This document shows, in pieces, positions 20,090-27,096 of a DNA stretch of 38,997 bases. The notes beneath the pieces were generated by a model, which made no database searches, was not told the origin of the DNA, and saw only the letters and a program-made list of their open reading frames with translations. The DNA comes from Bacillota bacterium. GTDB taxonomy: Bacteria; Bacillota; Limnochordia; Darwinibacteriales; JAAYFS01. The translations under genes and the position numbers were made by a program. How positions within the stretch are numbered: the stretch's first letter is position 1; every line of letters starts with the position of its first letter. The DNA lies in contig JAAYFS010000056.1 in the NCBI GenBank assembly GCA_012728115.1, positions 1 to 38,997 of the forward strand, given 5' to 3'.

Positions 20090-20590
20090 ATGCGTAGGAA
20101 GGTTTCTTATTTTGTAGGGGCGCTGATTTGTCTTGCTCTAGCAGGCATTTTGATTTTGACGATTTATCTTTTTGATGGGGGGCCACCTAGTGAGGAAAAA
20201 GATGGCACTGAGGTCAAGAAGGCTCGAATCACAGCTAATGAAAATGATATCGACTTATTGGCTAGGGCGGTTTATGCAGAAGCCAAAGGGGAGCCCTATG
20301 AGGGACAAGTTGCGGTTGCGGCCGTTATTCTTAATCGGGTGGAGCATCCTGAATTCCCCAACACCATCGCTGGCGTAATTTATGAACCGCTAGCATTTCA
20401 AGTTGTAGCTAACGGACAAATCAACCGTCCCGCAGATGAAAAGGCAAGACAAGCTGCTTTGGATGCTATTTACGGATTAGACACCTCCAAAGGAGCATTG
20501 TATTTTTATAACCCAAATAAAACGTCGAATCAGTGGATCAGGCAAAGGCCAGTGATTACAAAAATTGGGAAGCATGTGTTTGCAGCCTAA
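20090..20590 (+). CDS. sleB: SleB-type cortex-lytic / cell wall hydrolase
   Basis: 166 residues. A membrane anchor or uncleaved signal (about 8-28) and a short charged linker are followed by the Hydrolase_2 lytic transglycosylase domain, with LLARAVYAEAKGEPYEGQVA (probable catalytic Glu64) and AAVILNRVEHPEFPNTI. The family acts on muramic-delta-lactam in the spore cortex during germination. The N-terminal peptidoglycan-binding domain of B. subtilis SleB is missing. ypeB, the usual partner, lies 23 bases downstream, which supports the spore role. Confidence 0.85.
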   Translation: MRRKVSYFVGALICLALAGILILTIYLFDGGPPSEEKDGTEVKKARITANENDIDLLARAVYAEAKGEPYEGQVAVAAVILNRVEHPEFPNTIAGVIYEPLAFQVVANGQINRPADEKARQAALDAIYGLDTSKGALYFYNPNKTSNQWIRQRPVITKIGKHVFAA

Positions 20591-20613: not shown

Positions 20614-21900
20614 GTGAAAAAGGGCCTTTTAGTATTCTACCTAGGCACCTTGGTGGCATTAGTGATCATTGGGTTTACTCAATATCATTCAGCGCTAAGC
20701 TTTAGACAGCAGTTGGAAGCCAGTTACGAGCGCGCATTTTTGGAATTTGCCAGTCACCTAAACGGCATTGAAAATGAGCTTTCTAAGGCTCAGGTTGCCT
20801 CTACAGCGGAGAAACATATGCAAATCTATTCGAATATCTGGCGCTTGGTATATGCTTCCCAGGCGAATCTAGGCCAACTTCCTGTTGGGGAAGTTAGTCT
20901 ACAAAGAATAAAGACCTACTTAGCTGAACTGCAGAATAAAACGGTTCAATTCTTTAGCCAGGCAGTTAAAGAACCGCAAGCTTTTCAAAAACAAACAGAG
21001 ATAAATCAACAACTCAAGCAATTATACGAACAAGCCCAATACCTAAACCAAGAAATTCAGCTCGCTTTGGCTACTCGTGAAAGAGGGGATAGCTTGCTAA
21101 TGACGCAAGCCTTAATTGCGATCGAAGATGGGATGAGCAATAGATTTTTTGACTCGGAATTTCCTGGCGAGCTTGATCGTTTAGCCTTACCCAAGATCGA
21201 AGGCGAACAAATAACCTCTGAGGATGCATTAAGAATAGCAGAAGAATTCTTGGCCGAACTTGCGCCAGATTATCAATTAGCGGTTACTAATGAAGCTTTC
21301 GGCAGTCTACCAACCTACACTATTGTTGCTTCTAAGGAAGGACAACCCGAAATTTCCTTAGAGATTTCCAAACACGGTGGTTATGTTCTGTGGTTGATTA
21401 ATCCCCGAAATATTCCTAGCCAAGTTCTATGCATCGAAGAAATGGTAAGTATAGCGAATGATTTTCTTCAAGTACGAAACTTTCCTGAAGTAGAATTAGT
21501 TTCTACAGAAATCATTCAGAACAAAGGTCATTTGGTATATGCTGTTGTGGATCAGGGTGTGGTGATTTATCCTGAAACTTTAACAGTTCAAGTGGCTGGC
21601 GATCGCCAGGAAATAGTTGGATTTCGTGGCTTAGCGTTCTATAGCGTTCATAAAGAACGCGAATTACGGCCCGCAATAACGATGACGGATGCGCAAGCCG
21701 TAATTTTGGAACCTGGTAATATTCAACCAGAAGACATAGTTCAGAGTCGCCTAGCAGTTATTTTTAACGATTCCTATCAAGAAGTATTGGTGTATGAGTT
21801 TCGTATTCATCATGCGCAAGAGGAATTTCTTGTTTACATCAACGCTAATGAAGGAACGGAAGAAAAAATCCATCGCGTCCAACCAGGTCTAATTAAGTAG
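20614..21900 (+). CDS. ypeB: Germination protein YpeB
   Basis: 428 residues. One N-terminal membrane helix (about 5-22) is followed by a long helical region that includes ASYERAFLEFASHLNGIENE, and the C-terminal half carries PepSY-like repeats starting near 190, 270 and 345. In Bacillus YpeB is needed for SleB to be placed in the spore; gene order and spacing here match. The GTG follows GAGGTGG. The last 8 bases overlap the end of the convergent dnaE2-type gene, with no terminator between them. Confidence 0.88.
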   Translation: MKKGLLVFYLGTLVALVIIGFTQYHSALSFRQQLEASYERAFLEFASHLNGIENELSKAQVASTAEKHMQIYSNIWRLVYASQANLGQLPVGEVSLQRIKTYLAELQNKTVQFFSQAVKEPQAFQKQTEINQQLKQLYEQAQYLNQEIQLALATRERGDSLLMTQALIAIEDGMSNRFFDSEFPGELDRLALPKIEGEQITSEDALRIAEEFLAELAPDYQLAVTNEAFGSLPTYTIVASKEGQPEISLEISKHGGYVLWLINPRNIPSQVLCIEEMVSIANDFLQVRNFPEVELVSTEIIQNKGHLVYAVVDQGVVIYPETLTVQVAGDRQEIVGFRGLAFYSVHKERELRPAITMTDAQAVILEPGNIQPEDIVQSRLAVIFNDSYQEVLVYEFRIHHAQEEFLVYINANEGTEEKIHRVQPGLIK

Positions 21901-24900
21901 AAAGCGGCTGGATATAATCGGCGATAATGGTGGCAAGTTTCCCTTGCAAAGCTAATTTACCCGTTACTTTTAGTAGTGGGAAATTAAATATTTCCTTACT
22001 GAAACGCCGATACACATTTTCAAAAATGGTAACATCGAGTAGACCATACTCATCTTCTAACGACAGAAAAACAACAGTTTTTCCGCTACGGGTAGGTGGA
22101 CGATGAGGTCGAATAACCAAACCAGCAACCGTAACTCGCTTGCCTTCCATGGGGGTGGCTTTTTGTAATTCTTTACTAGTATACACATTTTGTTTTTCTA
22201 AATAAGGGCGATAAAAGTCCATGATATGTTTGGAAGACGATAGTTGAAGCACACGATACTCATTTAACCAACGCTCCCAATCGGAAAAATCTTCAATACC
22301 ACTGAAGTCGCTTTCTTCGAGGAATAAGCTATTCTTACGATTCTTTATTAAGGTAGCTGTTTGCCATACAAGAGAGCGACGGTTATTATTAAACCGATCA
22401 AAAGCTCCTGCTAAAATCAGATTATCGATCACGTCTTTGTTCACGCTGGTACGTTTGATAAAATCAGCTAACGAACTAAAGGGTCTGATCTTTCGTTCAT
22501 CGATTATGGATTGTAGTTCATCCGCCGTTATTCCTCTTACTTGTTTCAATCCGATCCGAATAGAGTTTTCATCGGCAGTAAAATCGATCTCGCTTGCTAA
22601 AATATCGAGTGGGAGAATTTTAATTCCTCTTTGCCTTGCATGCACGATCAATGTATTCGGTGGGTAAAAGCCCATCGGTTGATGGTTTAATAAAGCAGCA
22701 AAAAAGTAAGAAGGATAGTGTCGGATTAAGTACGCGGTTTTATAAGCTGTATCGGAAAAGGCAGCAGCATGAGCCTCACAAAAACCATAGCCTGCGTAAC
22801 TTAGAATATATGCAAAAATTTCCTTTGCCACCTTAGGCTCGATCCCATTAGCGATCGCTTTAGTAACAAATTGTTCCCCGATTCTCTCCAATTCTTTTTG
22901 TGACCGATAATTTGTCATCGCCCTTCGTAAGCGATCGGATTCCCCAGGGGTAAAACCTGCTATTTCGGTAGCGATCTCGATTACTTGTTCCTGATAAAGT
23001 ACCACTCCATACGTTTTTGCTAAGATCGACTTTAATTTAGGATGTAGGTAGGTAGGGGTTTCTAAACCATGACGTCTTGTAATAAAAGGTTCTACCATAT
23101 CAGCCTTTATTGGACCAGGTCGGATAAGAGCAACGCTAGCAACAATATCTTCGATATTATCTGCATGTAATCTCGCCTGTAAACTTCGTTGGGCAGGACT
23201 TTCTAACTGAAATACTCCGACACTACTAGCATTATTTAGCATTTGATAGGTATCTTGATCATCCAACGGAATATCATCGTAAGATTTTCCTTGCTGTTTA
23301 AGCACTGGCTCAACTTCTTTTACCGCTGAAAGGGTGCGTAAAGAAAGCAGATCCAACTTAATTAATCCTAAATCCTCAATGGTTCGTTTATCGAATTGAG
23401 TGATATACACGCCCTTGGCTGATAATTGAAGGGGAGTAACATTAGTAAGAGGTTCTCCGCTGATTACTAAGCCACCTAAGTGAGTCCCGATATGTCGTGG
23501 GAAACCGTTGATCGCAGTGCAAAGCGTCAAAAGATACTTGTAGCGAGGACTATGAAGAGGGTGCCCTTTAAGCTCTGGTAATCTCTTTAAAACATCTTCG
23601 ATCCCATCAGCGGGCGTATAACCAGGAATATTCTTTACTAGCCCTTCGATAACATCCTGCGGATAATCTAAAGCTTTAGCTAAATCGCGTAAAGCGGAAC
23701 GTGCATGAAAGGTACTAAAGGTACATACAGAGGCTACATGATCCTTTCTATATTTTTTATAAACATAATGGGCGATTTCATCGCGATGGCGTGCATCAAA
23801 ATCGATATCAATATCGGGTTTTTGCGCTCTTTCCAGACTTAAAAATCTTTCAAAAAGAAGCCCGCGTCCAATCGAATCTACATTAGTGATTTCCAAACAG
23901 TAGGCAACTGCTGAATCAGCAGCCGAGCCACGCCCAGCATAACGAATTTGTTTGGTTTTAGCGAATTGGACAATATCCCAGACTGCAAGAAAGTAGTCGG
24001 CTACATCAAGTTTAGCAATTATTCTTAACTCATGTTCAAGCCTGTTAATAATAGGTTGAGTTAGCTTAGAATATCGTTTTTTCGCTCCTTGCCAAACCAA
24101 ATTACGCAAGAAGGAATGAGAATCGCTCCCATCCTTTAGATCAAATTTTGGAAAAAGGTTTTTTCCTAGATTTAATGCTGGTTCACAACGCTCAGCAATT
24201 TCTAAGGTGGTTTCCAATGCCTGAGGATACCTTTTAAACCGTCTTTGCATTTCATCGATACTAGTTAAGTAATTTTCGGAATTTAACGGGCGTTCAGGAT
24301 GAATATCATCCACATTGGTCTTAGTTCTTACGCAAGTTAAAAGATCGTGGATAGTATAATTTTCTTGAACAGCGTAGTGCACATTATTAGTAGCAACAAG
24401 GGGAATATCAGTATATTTATGAAGTTCATAAAGAGCGTCGAGCAAAAAAGTTGTTCTCGGAAGAAAGGTATTGATCATTTCTAGATACACTTGTTTCTTG
24501 CCAAATATTTCTAGCAAACGGTAGAGTTCTGTTTTAGCTCTTTCGAAATTTTTGCGAAGCAATGCTTGACAGATAGCCGAATTGCGACAACCCGTCAAAA
24601 CAATTAACCCTTCTTTATAACTAGCAAGGGTATCCCATGATACCGATGGGGAATTTTTTGATAGCCGATACGCATCTGTTAAAATTTTACAGATGCTTTG
24701 GTAACCGCGATTATTCTCGGCCAGTAAAGTTAGGTGAAACCCTCCTTCGATAGTTATTTCCACGCCTTGAATAGGCTTGATACCAAGCTCATTCGCTTGC
24801 TTGTAAAACTCTACTGCTCCACTAACATTATTATGATCCGTTAAAGCAATTGCAGGCATTTCTAACTCGGCGGCTTTTTTTAAATAGGTCTCTATGGACG

Positions 24901-24952
24901 AGGCACCGTCTAGAAAGGAATATTGCGAATGAACGTGTAAGTGAATAAACAT
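21893..24952 (-). CDS. dnaE2: Error-prone DNA polymerase III alpha, DnaE2 type
   Basis: 1019 residues, shorter than replicative DnaE (about 1150). The N-terminal PHP domain starts FIHLHVHSQYSFLDGASSI with LTDHNN at about 38-42. The palm has RGSAADSAVAY at 341-351, the catalytic PDIDIDF at 379-385 and the third Asp (534) in KLDLLSLR. Fingers and helix-hairpin-helix follow, and an OB fold lies after about 930. It is the third gene of an operon with an ImuB-like protein and a LexA box, which points to SOS-induced translesion synthesis. GAGGGATAAAG precedes the ATG. A replicative DnaE role is the alternative. Confidence 0.85.
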   Translation of the reverse strand: MFIHLHVHSQYSFLDGASSIETYLKKAAELEMPAIALTDHNNVSGAVEFYKQANELGIKPIQGVEITIEGGFHLTLLAENNRGYQSICKILTDAYRLSKNSPSVSWDTLASYKEGLIVLTGCRNSAICQALLRKNFERAKTELYRLLEIFGKKQVYLEMINTFLPRTTFLLDALYELHKYTDIPLVATNNVHYAVQENYTIHDLLTCVRTKTNVDDIHPERPLNSENYLTSIDEMQRRFKRYPQALETTLEIAERCEPALNLGKNLFPKFDLKDGSDSHSFLRNLVWQGAKKRYSKLTQPIINRLEHELRIIAKLDVADYFLAVWDIVQFAKTKQIRYAGRGSAADSAVAYCLEITNVDSIGRGLLFERFLSLERAQKPDIDIDFDARHRDEIAHYVYKKYRKDHVASVCTFSTFHARSALRDLAKALDYPQDVIEGLVKNIPGYTPADGIEDVLKRLPELKGHPLHSPRYKYLLTLCTAINGFPRHIGTHLGGLVISGEPLTNVTPLQLSAKGVYITQFDKRTIEDLGLIKLDLLSLRTLSAVKEVEPVLKQQGKSYDDIPLDDQDTYQMLNNASSVGVFQLESPAQRSLQARLHADNIEDIVASVALIRPGPIKADMVEPFITRRHGLETPTYLHPKLKSILAKTYGVVLYQEQVIEIATEIAGFTPGESDRLRRAMTNYRSQKELERIGEQFVTKAIANGIEPKVAKEIFAYILSYAGYGFCEAHAAAFSDTAYKTAYLIRHYPSYFFAALLNHQPMGFYPPNTLIVHARQRGIKILPLDILASEIDFTADENSIRIGLKQVRGITADELQSIIDERKIRPFSSLADFIKRTSVNKDVIDNLILAGAFDRFNNNRRSLVWQTATLIKNRKNSLFLEESDFSGIEDFSDWERWLNEYRVLQLSSSKHIMDFYRPYLEKQNVYTSKELQKATPMEGKRVTVAGLVIRPHRPPTRSGKTVVFLSLEDEYGLLDVTIFENVYRRFSKEIFNFPLLKVTGKLALQGKLATIIADYIQPLST

Positions 24953-24961
24953 CTTTATCCC

Positions 24962-25201
24962 TCAATCTTCGATTCGATATAGTAGCCATTGATTAGTTTT
25001 CGGAAAAAAATGCAACTCAAAAACACTTTTGGCTGCAATTACCCGATAAATATGAATGGGGGATTCTTCTAACCACCATTGCCCAGATTCTCTCCATTGT
25101 TCTTGGATTCCCTCAACACGGTACTCTTTATGATAATAGAATTGTTCAGGGATTCCATTCTTAGCGATAACCCTAACGGGTTTATTCACAAACTTACTCA
25201 T
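24962..25201 (-). CDS. Small DUF6504-like protein in the mutagenesis operon
   Basis: 79 residues, probably one compact beta domain: VNKPVRVIAKNGIPEQFYYH, then a WW pair in GQWWLEESPIHIYRVIAAKS and the end WLLYRIED. The layout (P-x-x-F, Y-x-V-x-x-I, WW, YRV-A, W-L-R--D) recalls the DUF6504 family, which I recall beside Y-family polymerase genes; this was recognised by eye only. It starts 3 bases after the imuB-like stop and ends 9 bases before dnaE2, so the three are certainly co-transcribed. No biochemical function is known to me. Confidence 0.65.
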   Translation of the reverse strand: MSKFVNKPVRVIAKNGIPEQFYYHKEYRVEGIQEQWRESGQWWLEESPIHIYRVIAAKSVFELHFFPKTNQWLLYRIED

Positions 25202-25204
25202 TGG

Positions 25205-26185
25205 TTAAAGATATTTTTCCTCCCACATTGCGAGTATTTTTTCACGTCTAGAAATAGAAATCGAGGTTAAAGCCTCATCACCAAATCTAACTTTTAGTTC
25301 TTCGGATACCTGAGTTACTTTTAGTTTATTGCCAGAATTAGAACCGAATATTGAAAGCTGAGTAGCGGAATGTGCTTTGAGTCTCTTAACGCGAATACCC
25401 AGGATGCTAACGGCTGTTTGGGGGAGAGAAGATCTGAGAAAACGCAATAACTGGTCGCTTTTATCTGTGGGCGAATAAAGGGTTTTTACTTTCGAACATC
25501 TTTGTTCGTCGCAATACCAATAAAGCTCTACTTGCTCCGCTAAGCGGTTAACAGCGTGTAACTGATCGCAAATAGATCTAACACCTACCTCAAGGTGATT
25601 AACCAATAGTGGCGGAGCAACTTTTGCTTGATACTCGGGCAGAGTTAGGAAATTGATTTCCCAGGAAATAATTTGAAAAGTTTGACACTGTAAGGGGTGA
25701 GGGTCGATCCCGCTAATAAAGTTATAAATTAGGTTTCCATTATCACCGAATTGCTTTGCTAATTCTGATAAGGGGATCTTTTTTAATTCTCCGAAAGTAG
25801 CGATCCCTAATTTTTTTAAAGAAATAATATCGTTAGAAAGAGGTAAAAGTTCGATCGGTAACCTCGCTAAAAATTTATCGGTTTGATTTGGAAAAACGAT
25901 CGGAAGTTTGTTCGGAGAAAAACTATTTGCTTTGGCAACTAGCTCGGCAACCACTTTGCTGATCCCTGCTCCCCAAATCCCAGTTGAATTAGTGAAGGTT
26001 AGTTTTTGTTCAAATTGGACAGCAAATTCCTCCAGTGGTAAAGTAGAATCAAGTTGTAGATACCACTTAAGGTCCGCTTCTTGTTCGATCTTATCTGTCC
26101 AGCTTTGACAAAAATCAAGCCATGCATCGCTGCAGGAAACGATATCTATATTGTCATCGGTATCAATTTTAATATAGACTATCAT
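25205..26185 (-). CDS. ImuB-like non-catalytic Y-family polymerase protein
   Basis: 326 residues; Y-family polymerases usually have 350-500. A palm fragment (about 15-85) contains GIWGAGISKVVAELVAKA. Next come a thumb/hairpin region, LARLPIELLPLSNDIISLKK and LGIATFGELKKIPLSELAKQFG (about 105-147), then GIDPHPLQ and the little finger. The first palm strand with its catalytic Asp is absent, and WYLQLDS replaces the second acidic motif, so it should not polymerise. QLSIF at 276-280 is a likely beta-clamp peptide. It is the first gene of the SOS operon, with TAGGAGG before ATG. Confidence 0.75.
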   Translation of the reverse strand: MIVYIKIDTDDNIDIVSCSDAWLDFCQSWTDKIEQEADLKWYLQLDSTLPLEEFAVQFEQKLTFTNSTGIWGAGISKVVAELVAKANSFSPNKLPIVFPNQTDKFLARLPIELLPLSNDIISLKKLGIATFGELKKIPLSELAKQFGDNGNLIYNFISGIDPHPLQCQTFQIISWEINFLTLPEYQAKVAPPLLVNHLEVGVRSICDQLHAVNRLAEQVELYWYCDEQRCSKVKTLYSPTDKSDQLLRFLRSSLPQTAVSILGIRVKRLKAHSATQLSIFGSNSGNKLKVTQVSEELKVRFGDEALTSISISRREKILAMWEEKYL

Positions 26186-26212
26186 TTAATAACCTCCTAA
26201 AGCTTTCGCCTG

Positions 26213-26229
26213 GATCAAGTGACTTGATC
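26213..26229. repeat. 17-base inverted repeat in the imuB leader
   Basis: GATCAAGT at 26213-26220 and ACTTGATC at 26222-26229 are perfect inverted copies around a single G. The repeat lies between the predicted transcription start (about 26235) and the ribosome site of the imuB-like gene. It may be a second operator. As RNA it would form a short hairpin. Without a T-run it is not a terminator. Confidence 0.7.
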
Positions 26230-26241
26230 GAGTGTGTTTTT

Positions 26242-26271
26242 ATTTTAACCAAGAACATATGTTCGTGTCAA
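26242..26271 (-). promoter_or_regulatory. Promoter of the imuB-dnaE2 operon
   Basis: Reading the minus strand, TTGACA (plus-strand 26266-26271) and TAAAAT (26242-26247) are 18 bases apart, or 17 if TTAAAA is taken as the -10. This is a near-consensus sigma-A promoter. The LexA box fills the centre of the spacer, so repressor binding would exclude polymerase. Confidence 0.8.
26253..26264. promoter_or_regulatory. LexA (DinR) operator
   Basis: GAACATATGTTC is a perfect palindrome of the Firmicute form GAAC-N4-GTTC; with the flanking bases it reads CGAACATATGTTCT on the minus strand. It lies between the -35 and -10 of the mutagenesis operon. The site is symmetric, but the divergent PhnP-like gene begins at 26338 and might also feel the repressor. 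Confidence 0.88.
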
Positions 26272-26337
26272 GAGGGAGCTGTTTCCATCCCTGGTATTAT
26301 TTAATCACGCCTAATTAGGAAGGAAAGGGTGTTTTTT

Positions 26338-27096
26338 GTGAGAATTATATTCTTAGGAACTGGTACTTCGCATGGCGTTCCTGTTATCGGTTGTGATTGC
26401 GAAGTATGCACTAGTTTGGATAGCAAGAATAGAAGAACTAGATCATCGGTTTGGATCCAACAAGATAATACTGATATCATTATTGATACAGCTGTTGAAT
26501 TCCGGCTCCAAGCCTTAAGAGAAGGACTAACGAAAGTAGATGGAGTGTTGTACACCCATTGCCATGCGGACCATGTCTTTGGCTTCGATGATTTAAGGAT
26601 TTTTAGCCAACGGACCAATATTCAGACTCCAATCTATGGAAATAAACCAACGATAGAAGAAATCTACCAAGTATTTAGTTATGTCTTTCGTAAAACTCAA
26701 GAGGGGGGTGGGAAGCCTCAAGTAAATCCGATTGTTGTTACAGAATCTTTCTATATTAATAATGTGAGAATTATTCCTGTACCCATCTTTCATGGTGAAC
26801 TACCTATTTTAGGATATCGTATTGGGAAAATGGCCTATTTAACTGATTGCAGTAGGGTGCCCGAAGAATCACTTAAATTACTTGAAGGTGTCGAAATCTT
26901 GATTCTAGGAGTAATTCGGTATGAACCACATCCTACTCATATGCATGTTGAAAAAGCATTGGAATTAATAAGTATACTTGAACCAAAGCGCACTTATTTT
27001 ACGCATATCTCACATTTATTGGAGCATAGAAAGGTCAATAAAGAGTTACCTGATGGTGTTGAATTGGCTTATGATGGTTTAATCGTACAGGTCTAA
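26338..27096 (+). CDS. MBL-fold metallohydrolase, PhnP-like
   Basis: 252 residues. Metallo-beta-lactamase-fold phosphodiesterase-type protein with THCHADHVFG (His74, His76, Asp78, His79), a later His in PIFHGE, and THISHL near the end. The N-terminal GCDCEVC (Cys19, 21, 24) matches the structural zinc site of PhnP, a cyclic phosphate phosphodiesterase. No phn genes lie nearby, so the substrate is unknown. GTG at 26329 overlaps the GGAAAGGG site; GTG at 26338 is well spaced and gives the usual MRIIFLGTGTSHG start. Confidence 0.85.
   Translation: MRIIFLGTGTSHGVPVIGCDCEVCTSLDSKNRRTRSSVWIQQDNTDIIIDTAVEFRLQALREGLTKVDGVLYTHCHADHVFGFDDLRIFSQRTNIQTPIYGNKPTIEEIYQVFSYVFRKTQEGGGKPQVNPIVVTESFYINNVRIIPVPIFHGELPILGYRIGKMAYLTDCSRVPEESLKLLEGVEILILGVIRYEPHPTHMHVEKALELISILEPKRTYFTHISHLLEHRKVNKELPDGVELAYDGLIVQV

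Follow-up and report, generated by a model that had tools for sequence, protein, structure and literature searches.

The 38,997-nucleotide stretch of Limnochordia (Bacillota) DNA analyzed here, hereafter the window, carries a three-gene operon that we read, with a probability of roughly 0.86, as a LexA-repressed mutasome of the known ImuA-less kind, in which the role of ImuA most likely falls to RecA. The original prediction had proposed a distinct, minimal mutasome layout; since the iPolY-ImuB-C-DnaE2 arrangement without ImuA has already been published as the imuY-imuB-C-dnaE2 or DnaE2X type (PMC8072749, PMC6511836, PMC12926913), we regard the operon as a known system in a lineage new to it (Limnochordia, Bacillota). 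A type of SOS mutagenesis cassette without ImuA that has been tested by experiment elsewhere is thereby extended to a PolC-bearing Bacillota class that includes this spore-former.

Organization and conservation of the operon

The operon consists of a gene for an inactive Y-family polymerase (ImuY/iPolY, ImuB-like without the C domain; 25205..26185, 326 aa), a standalone ImuB-C gene (Pfam DUF6504; 24962..25201, 79 aa, all-beta), and a gene for a DnaE2-type error-prone polymerase (21893..24952, 1019 aa). Pfam profile searches of all three proteins agree with the predicted operon of imuB-like, DUF6504, and dnaE2-type genes, and the ORF list places all three on the minus strand with spacings of 3 and 9 bases, as close together as had been claimed. 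Pfam also confirmed the adjoining germination genes, namely, ypeB (spore germination; 20614..21900, plus strand), which lies outside the mutasome system and is convergent with dnaE2, their ends overlapping by 8 bases, and a germination-type cell-wall hydrolase gene (20090-20590, plus strand). On the other side, a divergent phnP/yycJ-like gene of the metallo-beta-lactamase fold (26329..27096, plus strand) adjoins the cassette and might share its SOS-controlled intergenic region. A gene of the same family is also found beside iPolY at a locus in another family of the class (L169, 7785-8543).

Those relatives that bear a name belong to Limnochordia and other Bacillota metagenome genomes. The suggested linkage of the small gene proved to be conserved: the order iPolY-ImuB-C-DnaE2 was found in 27/27 order-level loci with enough sequence, and 33 of the order's 37 genomes have the small gene. 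We examined 16 loci from other families of the class; each has iPolY beside or close to ImuB-C, and 13 also have DnaE2 next to the pair or no more than about 3 kb away. Two of the remaining three loci end early and one (L170) shows no DnaE2. In some relatives of the class, what looked like a fourth gene separating imuB-C from dnaE2 turned out to be trpS, on the opposite strand. In addition, an Abditibacteriota plasmid (AP024153.1; L186:642-6713) carries a locus annotated as lexA, three hypothetical genes, and dnaE2, in which the third gene product (417 aa) aligns as a Y-family protein and the fourth is a 111-aa hypothetical protein. This plasmid locus appears to be the same cassette, here in a different phylum.

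A LexA box within the promoter

The best match to a sigma-70-type promoter in the region, TTGACA-18-TAAAAT (26242..26271, minus strand), agrees with 11 of 12 consensus positions, and a perfect LexA (SOS) box, GAACATATGTTC (26253..26264, no strand assigned), lies inside the spacer between its -35 and -10 elements. The box alone proves nothing, since a palindrome of the GAACATATGTTC type is expected by chance 0.58 times per window on average, and one such palindrome per window is therefore not unusual. Likewise, the bare pattern GAACNNNNGTTC defines no regulon, given that a genome-wide count gave 18 sites versus 30 for the reversed control pattern. We therefore based the SOS assignment on promoter context and conservation in place of bare pattern counts. 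A GAAC/AAAC-N4-GTTC box stands just upstream of the iPolY gene in all 28 relatives with readable upstream DNA; the promoter arrangement is the same, and the boxes are often double, with one in the spacer and one after the -10 element. The genome encodes LexA at a separate location (C26), with three related boxes upstream (AAACGTATGTTC, GAACATATGTTT, and GAACGCAAGTTT), and one related box, GAACAACAGTTT, precedes recA. Taken together, the position of the box in the promoter, its recurrence in the 28 relatives, and the lexA and recA boxes make control of the operon by LexA, as originally predicted, well supported at the sequence level.

The small protein as a detached domain of ImuB

The 79-aa protein matches Pfam DUF6504 at E = 3e-6, above the cut-off. 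Comparison of its family profile with a profile of ImuB C-termini, built from ten plasmid-encoded ImuB-type proteins (most of them beside imuA-like and dnaE2 genes), gave an hhalign probability of 92.4% (E 5.3e-7), covering 77 of 79 columns. The homology is visible only by profile-profile comparison: searching single ImuB proteins with an HMM of the small-protein family gave nothing significant (best E 0.05), and Pfam DUF6504 fails to reach three canonical ImuBs. The AlphaFold model shows an all-beta domain with a pLDDT of 91 and no RecA fold, and a fold search with this model in the PDB found no match; to our knowledge, the literature likewise gives no PDB match for the ImuB-C fold. Judging from its homology, which spans its full length, to the domain that ends canonical ImuB, the 79-aa protein is that C-terminal domain, detached and encoded separately. 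Hence, it is a standalone ImuB-C, as defined and named by Aravind et al. 2013 (PMC3765255), and not the adaptor in place of ImuA that the original prediction had suggested.

The other part of that prediction, the lack of imuA in the operon, stands, and no imuA was found elsewhere, which would have counted against it. A RecA-family search of the genome returned a single locus, which is the true RecA, and the same Pfam model detected a known ImuA at 3e-12 as a positive control. As the assembly is 96% complete, some room is left for an unassembled imuA, although the relatives, too, showed no ImuA of the classical type.

An inactive Y-family polymerase

In Pfam, iPolY matches the HhH thumb (PF21999) just above the cut-off and IMS_C (PF11799) below it, whereas NCBIfam DinB models and PDB DinB and Rev1 chains match from about residue 50 onward. 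Its AlphaFold model (pLDDT 88) predicts a palm remnant, a thumb, and a little finger. A Foldseek search of this model against the PDB retrieved Dpo4, DinB, and Rev1 at E values of about 1e-12 to 1e-15, with low TM-scores of about 0.4 and an rmsd of about 16 A, probably because the domain orientation differs. Aligned to the active DinB of the same genome, iPolY has no fingers, its palm lacks the first half, and the first catalytic strand and the D-E pair are replaced or deleted. By this alignment, it is a relic of a Y-family polymerase that has lost its catalytic acidic residues. The deletion of the fingers was seen in the window and in genus g3; many iPolY proteins of the order are ~370 aa long and keep fingers-like sequence, and in these the catalytic residues are likewise absent. 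A putative beta-clamp motif, QLSIF (residues 276-280; 25346..25360, minus strand), has Q276 and L277 invariant in 29 rows.

iPolY ends after a RecA-NT-like tail, and ImuB-C follows as a separate ORF, unlike in ImuB, which carries its own C domain. The RecA-NT-like motif, VTQVSEELKVRFGDEALTSISI (residues about 290-311; 25253..25318, minus strand), was recognized as a visual match to the N-terminus of the genome's own RecA; the window iPolY keeps VSEELKVRFGDEAL, an xRFG helix like that of RecA. Relatives in the class but outside the order show a clear L..LQ.RFG..SI, with a profile match of P = 0.0037 in the RecA register. As hhalign of RecA N-termini against order-level iPolY tails found no match, the motif in the window is put forward on inspection and on these clearer relatives. 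Within the order, families f2 and f3 keep LKSRLG-like remnants, and RecA-NT is absent from all 18 iPolY tails of family f4 (L011, L012, L014, L016-L018, L020, L022-L025, L027-L032, and L034), where a short AQxGIELPRRER stands instead. With the motif lost in 18 relatives, docking of RecA cannot be a feature of the whole order. Natural test pairs for the role of RecA in ImuA-less mutasomes are offered by relatives that keep the helix and relatives that lack it.

DnaE2 is an accessory polymerase

DnaE2 has the Pfam domains PHP, Pol3-alpha, fingers, HHH_6, and OB, and keeps the catalytic residues D380, D382, and D534. Its PHP site has N190 in place of Asp, an alteration that is usual in DnaE2 (PMC12926913), and a domain search found no C-terminal tau-binding domain. 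A tree of 29 rows had E. coli DnaE1, Bacillales DnaE3, a clostridial DnaE, and the second DnaE of this genome as references. In it, the window protein belongs to a Limnochordia clade of 18 rows within the DnaE2 part, which is split from all of these references with a support of 100/99. It is separate from the ImuABC DnaE2 branch (100/100). Since the tree holds no confirmed DnaE2X or DnaE2B reference sequence, it is the composition of the operon that suggests a probable place for the protein in the DnaE2X clade (Timinskas 2026).

The genome also carries PolC and a second DnaE. It follows from the presence of PolC that the window DnaE2 is an accessory polymerase, and together with the tree position this refutes its being the sole replicative polymerase, the outcome that would have undone the original prediction. 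DnaE2 was extremely rare in PolC genomes in a 2014 survey (PMC3919608); in the present comparison, matches to the DnaE2 cassette and to PolC co-occur in most genomes examined.

Relation to known mutasomes

In D. deserti, the lexA-imuY-imuB-C-dnaE2 operon is induced via RecA/LexA, and both ImuY and DnaE2 are required for mutagenesis by UV (PMC8072749). The Deinococcus system resembles that of the window in having an inactive Y-family protein, an 80-aa ImuB-C between this protein and DnaE2, SOS control, and no imuA. It differs in that its lexA lies inside the operon, while that of the window genome lies elsewhere, and its host is not a PolC-bearing member of the Bacillota; the Y-family protein of the window, for its part, also lacks the fingers. 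The iPolY-ImuB-C-DnaE2 set of Kyrpidia tusciae and the DnaE2X group have the same three components and no ImuA, with RecA proposed instead (PMC6511836, PMC12926913), and, among DnaE2 complexes, that of DnaE2X is reported to be alone in occurring with each of the three types of replication system, PolC systems included (PMC6511836, PMC12926913). With the classical imuA-imuB-dnaE2 systems of Caulobacter, Mycobacterium, and Pseudomonas, the window shares the dead Y-family scaffold, the ImuB-C domain, DnaE2, and LexA control, but it has no ImuA, its ImuB-C is a separate protein, and its DnaE2 lies outside the ImuABC branch and does not carry the SRDF[HR] motif at the C-terminus. Geobacter sulfurreducens represents a further type, in which a polymerase Y gene also stands beside a standalone ImuB-C; there, however, the Y-family enzyme is active and has no DnaE2 linked to it (PMC6511836).

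Proposed mode of action and alternative explanations

Following DNA damage, RecA would trigger cleavage of LexA, and the three genes would be co-transcribed. For the contacts between the proteins and the mutagenic outcome, we draw on published models (PMC12926913, PMC6511836). DnaE2, as the sole active polymerase of the set, would copy past lesions, and the dead iPolY may serve as a scaffold whose QLSIF docks the beta clamp and whose thumb contacts DnaE2. Its C-terminal RecA-NT helix could bind RecA; indeed, it has been proposed that RecA, bound via the RecA-NT motif on the Y-family protein, assumes the role of ImuA (PMC6511836). ImuB-C, free here and fused to ImuB in classical systems, would form a bridge to the PHP domain of DnaE2, providing the principal contact with it. 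In this scheme, RecA, and not the small protein, most likely stands in for ImuA.

That the small protein is instead a functional replacement for ImuA, acting as an adaptor between iPolY and DnaE2, is suggested by its gene lying between the other two, by their strict linkage, and by the lack of ImuA in the genome. We nevertheless consider it improbable, because the protein corresponds by homology, from one end to the other, to a domain of canonical ImuB, which has ImuA as a partner as well, and because it is all-beta where ImuA is RecA-like. Moreover, published AlphaFold models of the classical complex put ImuB-C on the DnaE2 PHP domain, with ImuA touching both (PMC12926913). Less weight still goes to the idea that the window DnaE is a housekeeping subunit of the replication machinery whose gene lies in an SOS operon by coincidence. 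The NCBIfam scores for replicative and error-prone types are indeed close (914.6 versus 902.7 bits, both below the cut-offs), yet the genome has PolC and another DnaE, the protein groups with DnaE2 in the tree, it combines an altered PHP site with the lack of the tau-binding domain, and its gene is under LexA control, which leaves this explanation hardly credible.

It is somewhat easier to envisage, although we still think it unlikely, that iPolY, ImuB-C, and DnaE2 suffice with no RecA-fold partner at all. The 18 f4 relatives retain all three genes and the LexA boxes despite having no RecA-NT, and the study of Deinococcus left a requirement for RecA undecided (PMC8072749); against this, the window keeps its RecA-like xRFG helix, and other families of the class show the motif clearly. 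RecA in the place of ImuA is the reading we prefer for the window.

The start of imuB-C in two sister families

The window imuB-C starts with ATG. At nine loci of families f2 and f3 (L006, L007, L008, L009, L010, L013, L015, L019, and L026), neither the start of the imuB-C frame, at the junction with iPolY, nor the sequence before it offers an ATG, GTG, or TTG, and in 3 of the 9 none occurs even within the first 40 codons. The frame opens with a conserved ATC, in ATC TCT AA[AG] (AGG in one case), 7 bases downstream of GGGAG, and this opening overlaps the iPolY stop by 8 bases (TAT or CAT CTC, then TAA or TAG). Given the Shine-Dalgarno spacing, the simpler reading is that imuB-C initiates at the candidate ATC by translational coupling. 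Less likely than the ATC start, but conceivable, is a +1 frameshift that would restore a full ImuB. Judged from the release factor 2 site, the junction presumably offers a poor slippery codon for such a shift.

The fingerless iPolY of the window, the loss of RecA-NT in 18 relatives, and the ATC-only imuB-C in nine are small lineage-specific oddities that are worth following. They also allow a broader conjecture, in which the mutasome of this order has been pared below the published minimum through loss of the fingers and, in one family, of RecA-NT as well, so that bypass may need no RecA-fold adaptor, while two sister families would express ImuB-C from ATC or, less likely, by a +1 frameshift. 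As a whole, we hold this conjecture to be doubtful.

PolC and the second DnaE of the genome

The PolC of the genome (G000:C43, L163:1478-4855) has no internal proofreading exonuclease, and all matches in the class above the cut-off of the polC model skip the exonuclease region. A separate 226-aa ORF (G000:C28:8159-8674) matches the PolC exonuclease at 2.7e-37. PolCs without the exonuclease make up 6% of all PolCs (PMC3919608). The second DnaE (G000:C32, L001:712-3735) has a degenerate PHP site, no recognized OB domain, and a very long tree branch (2.89), features that are unusual for a replicative partner of PolC.
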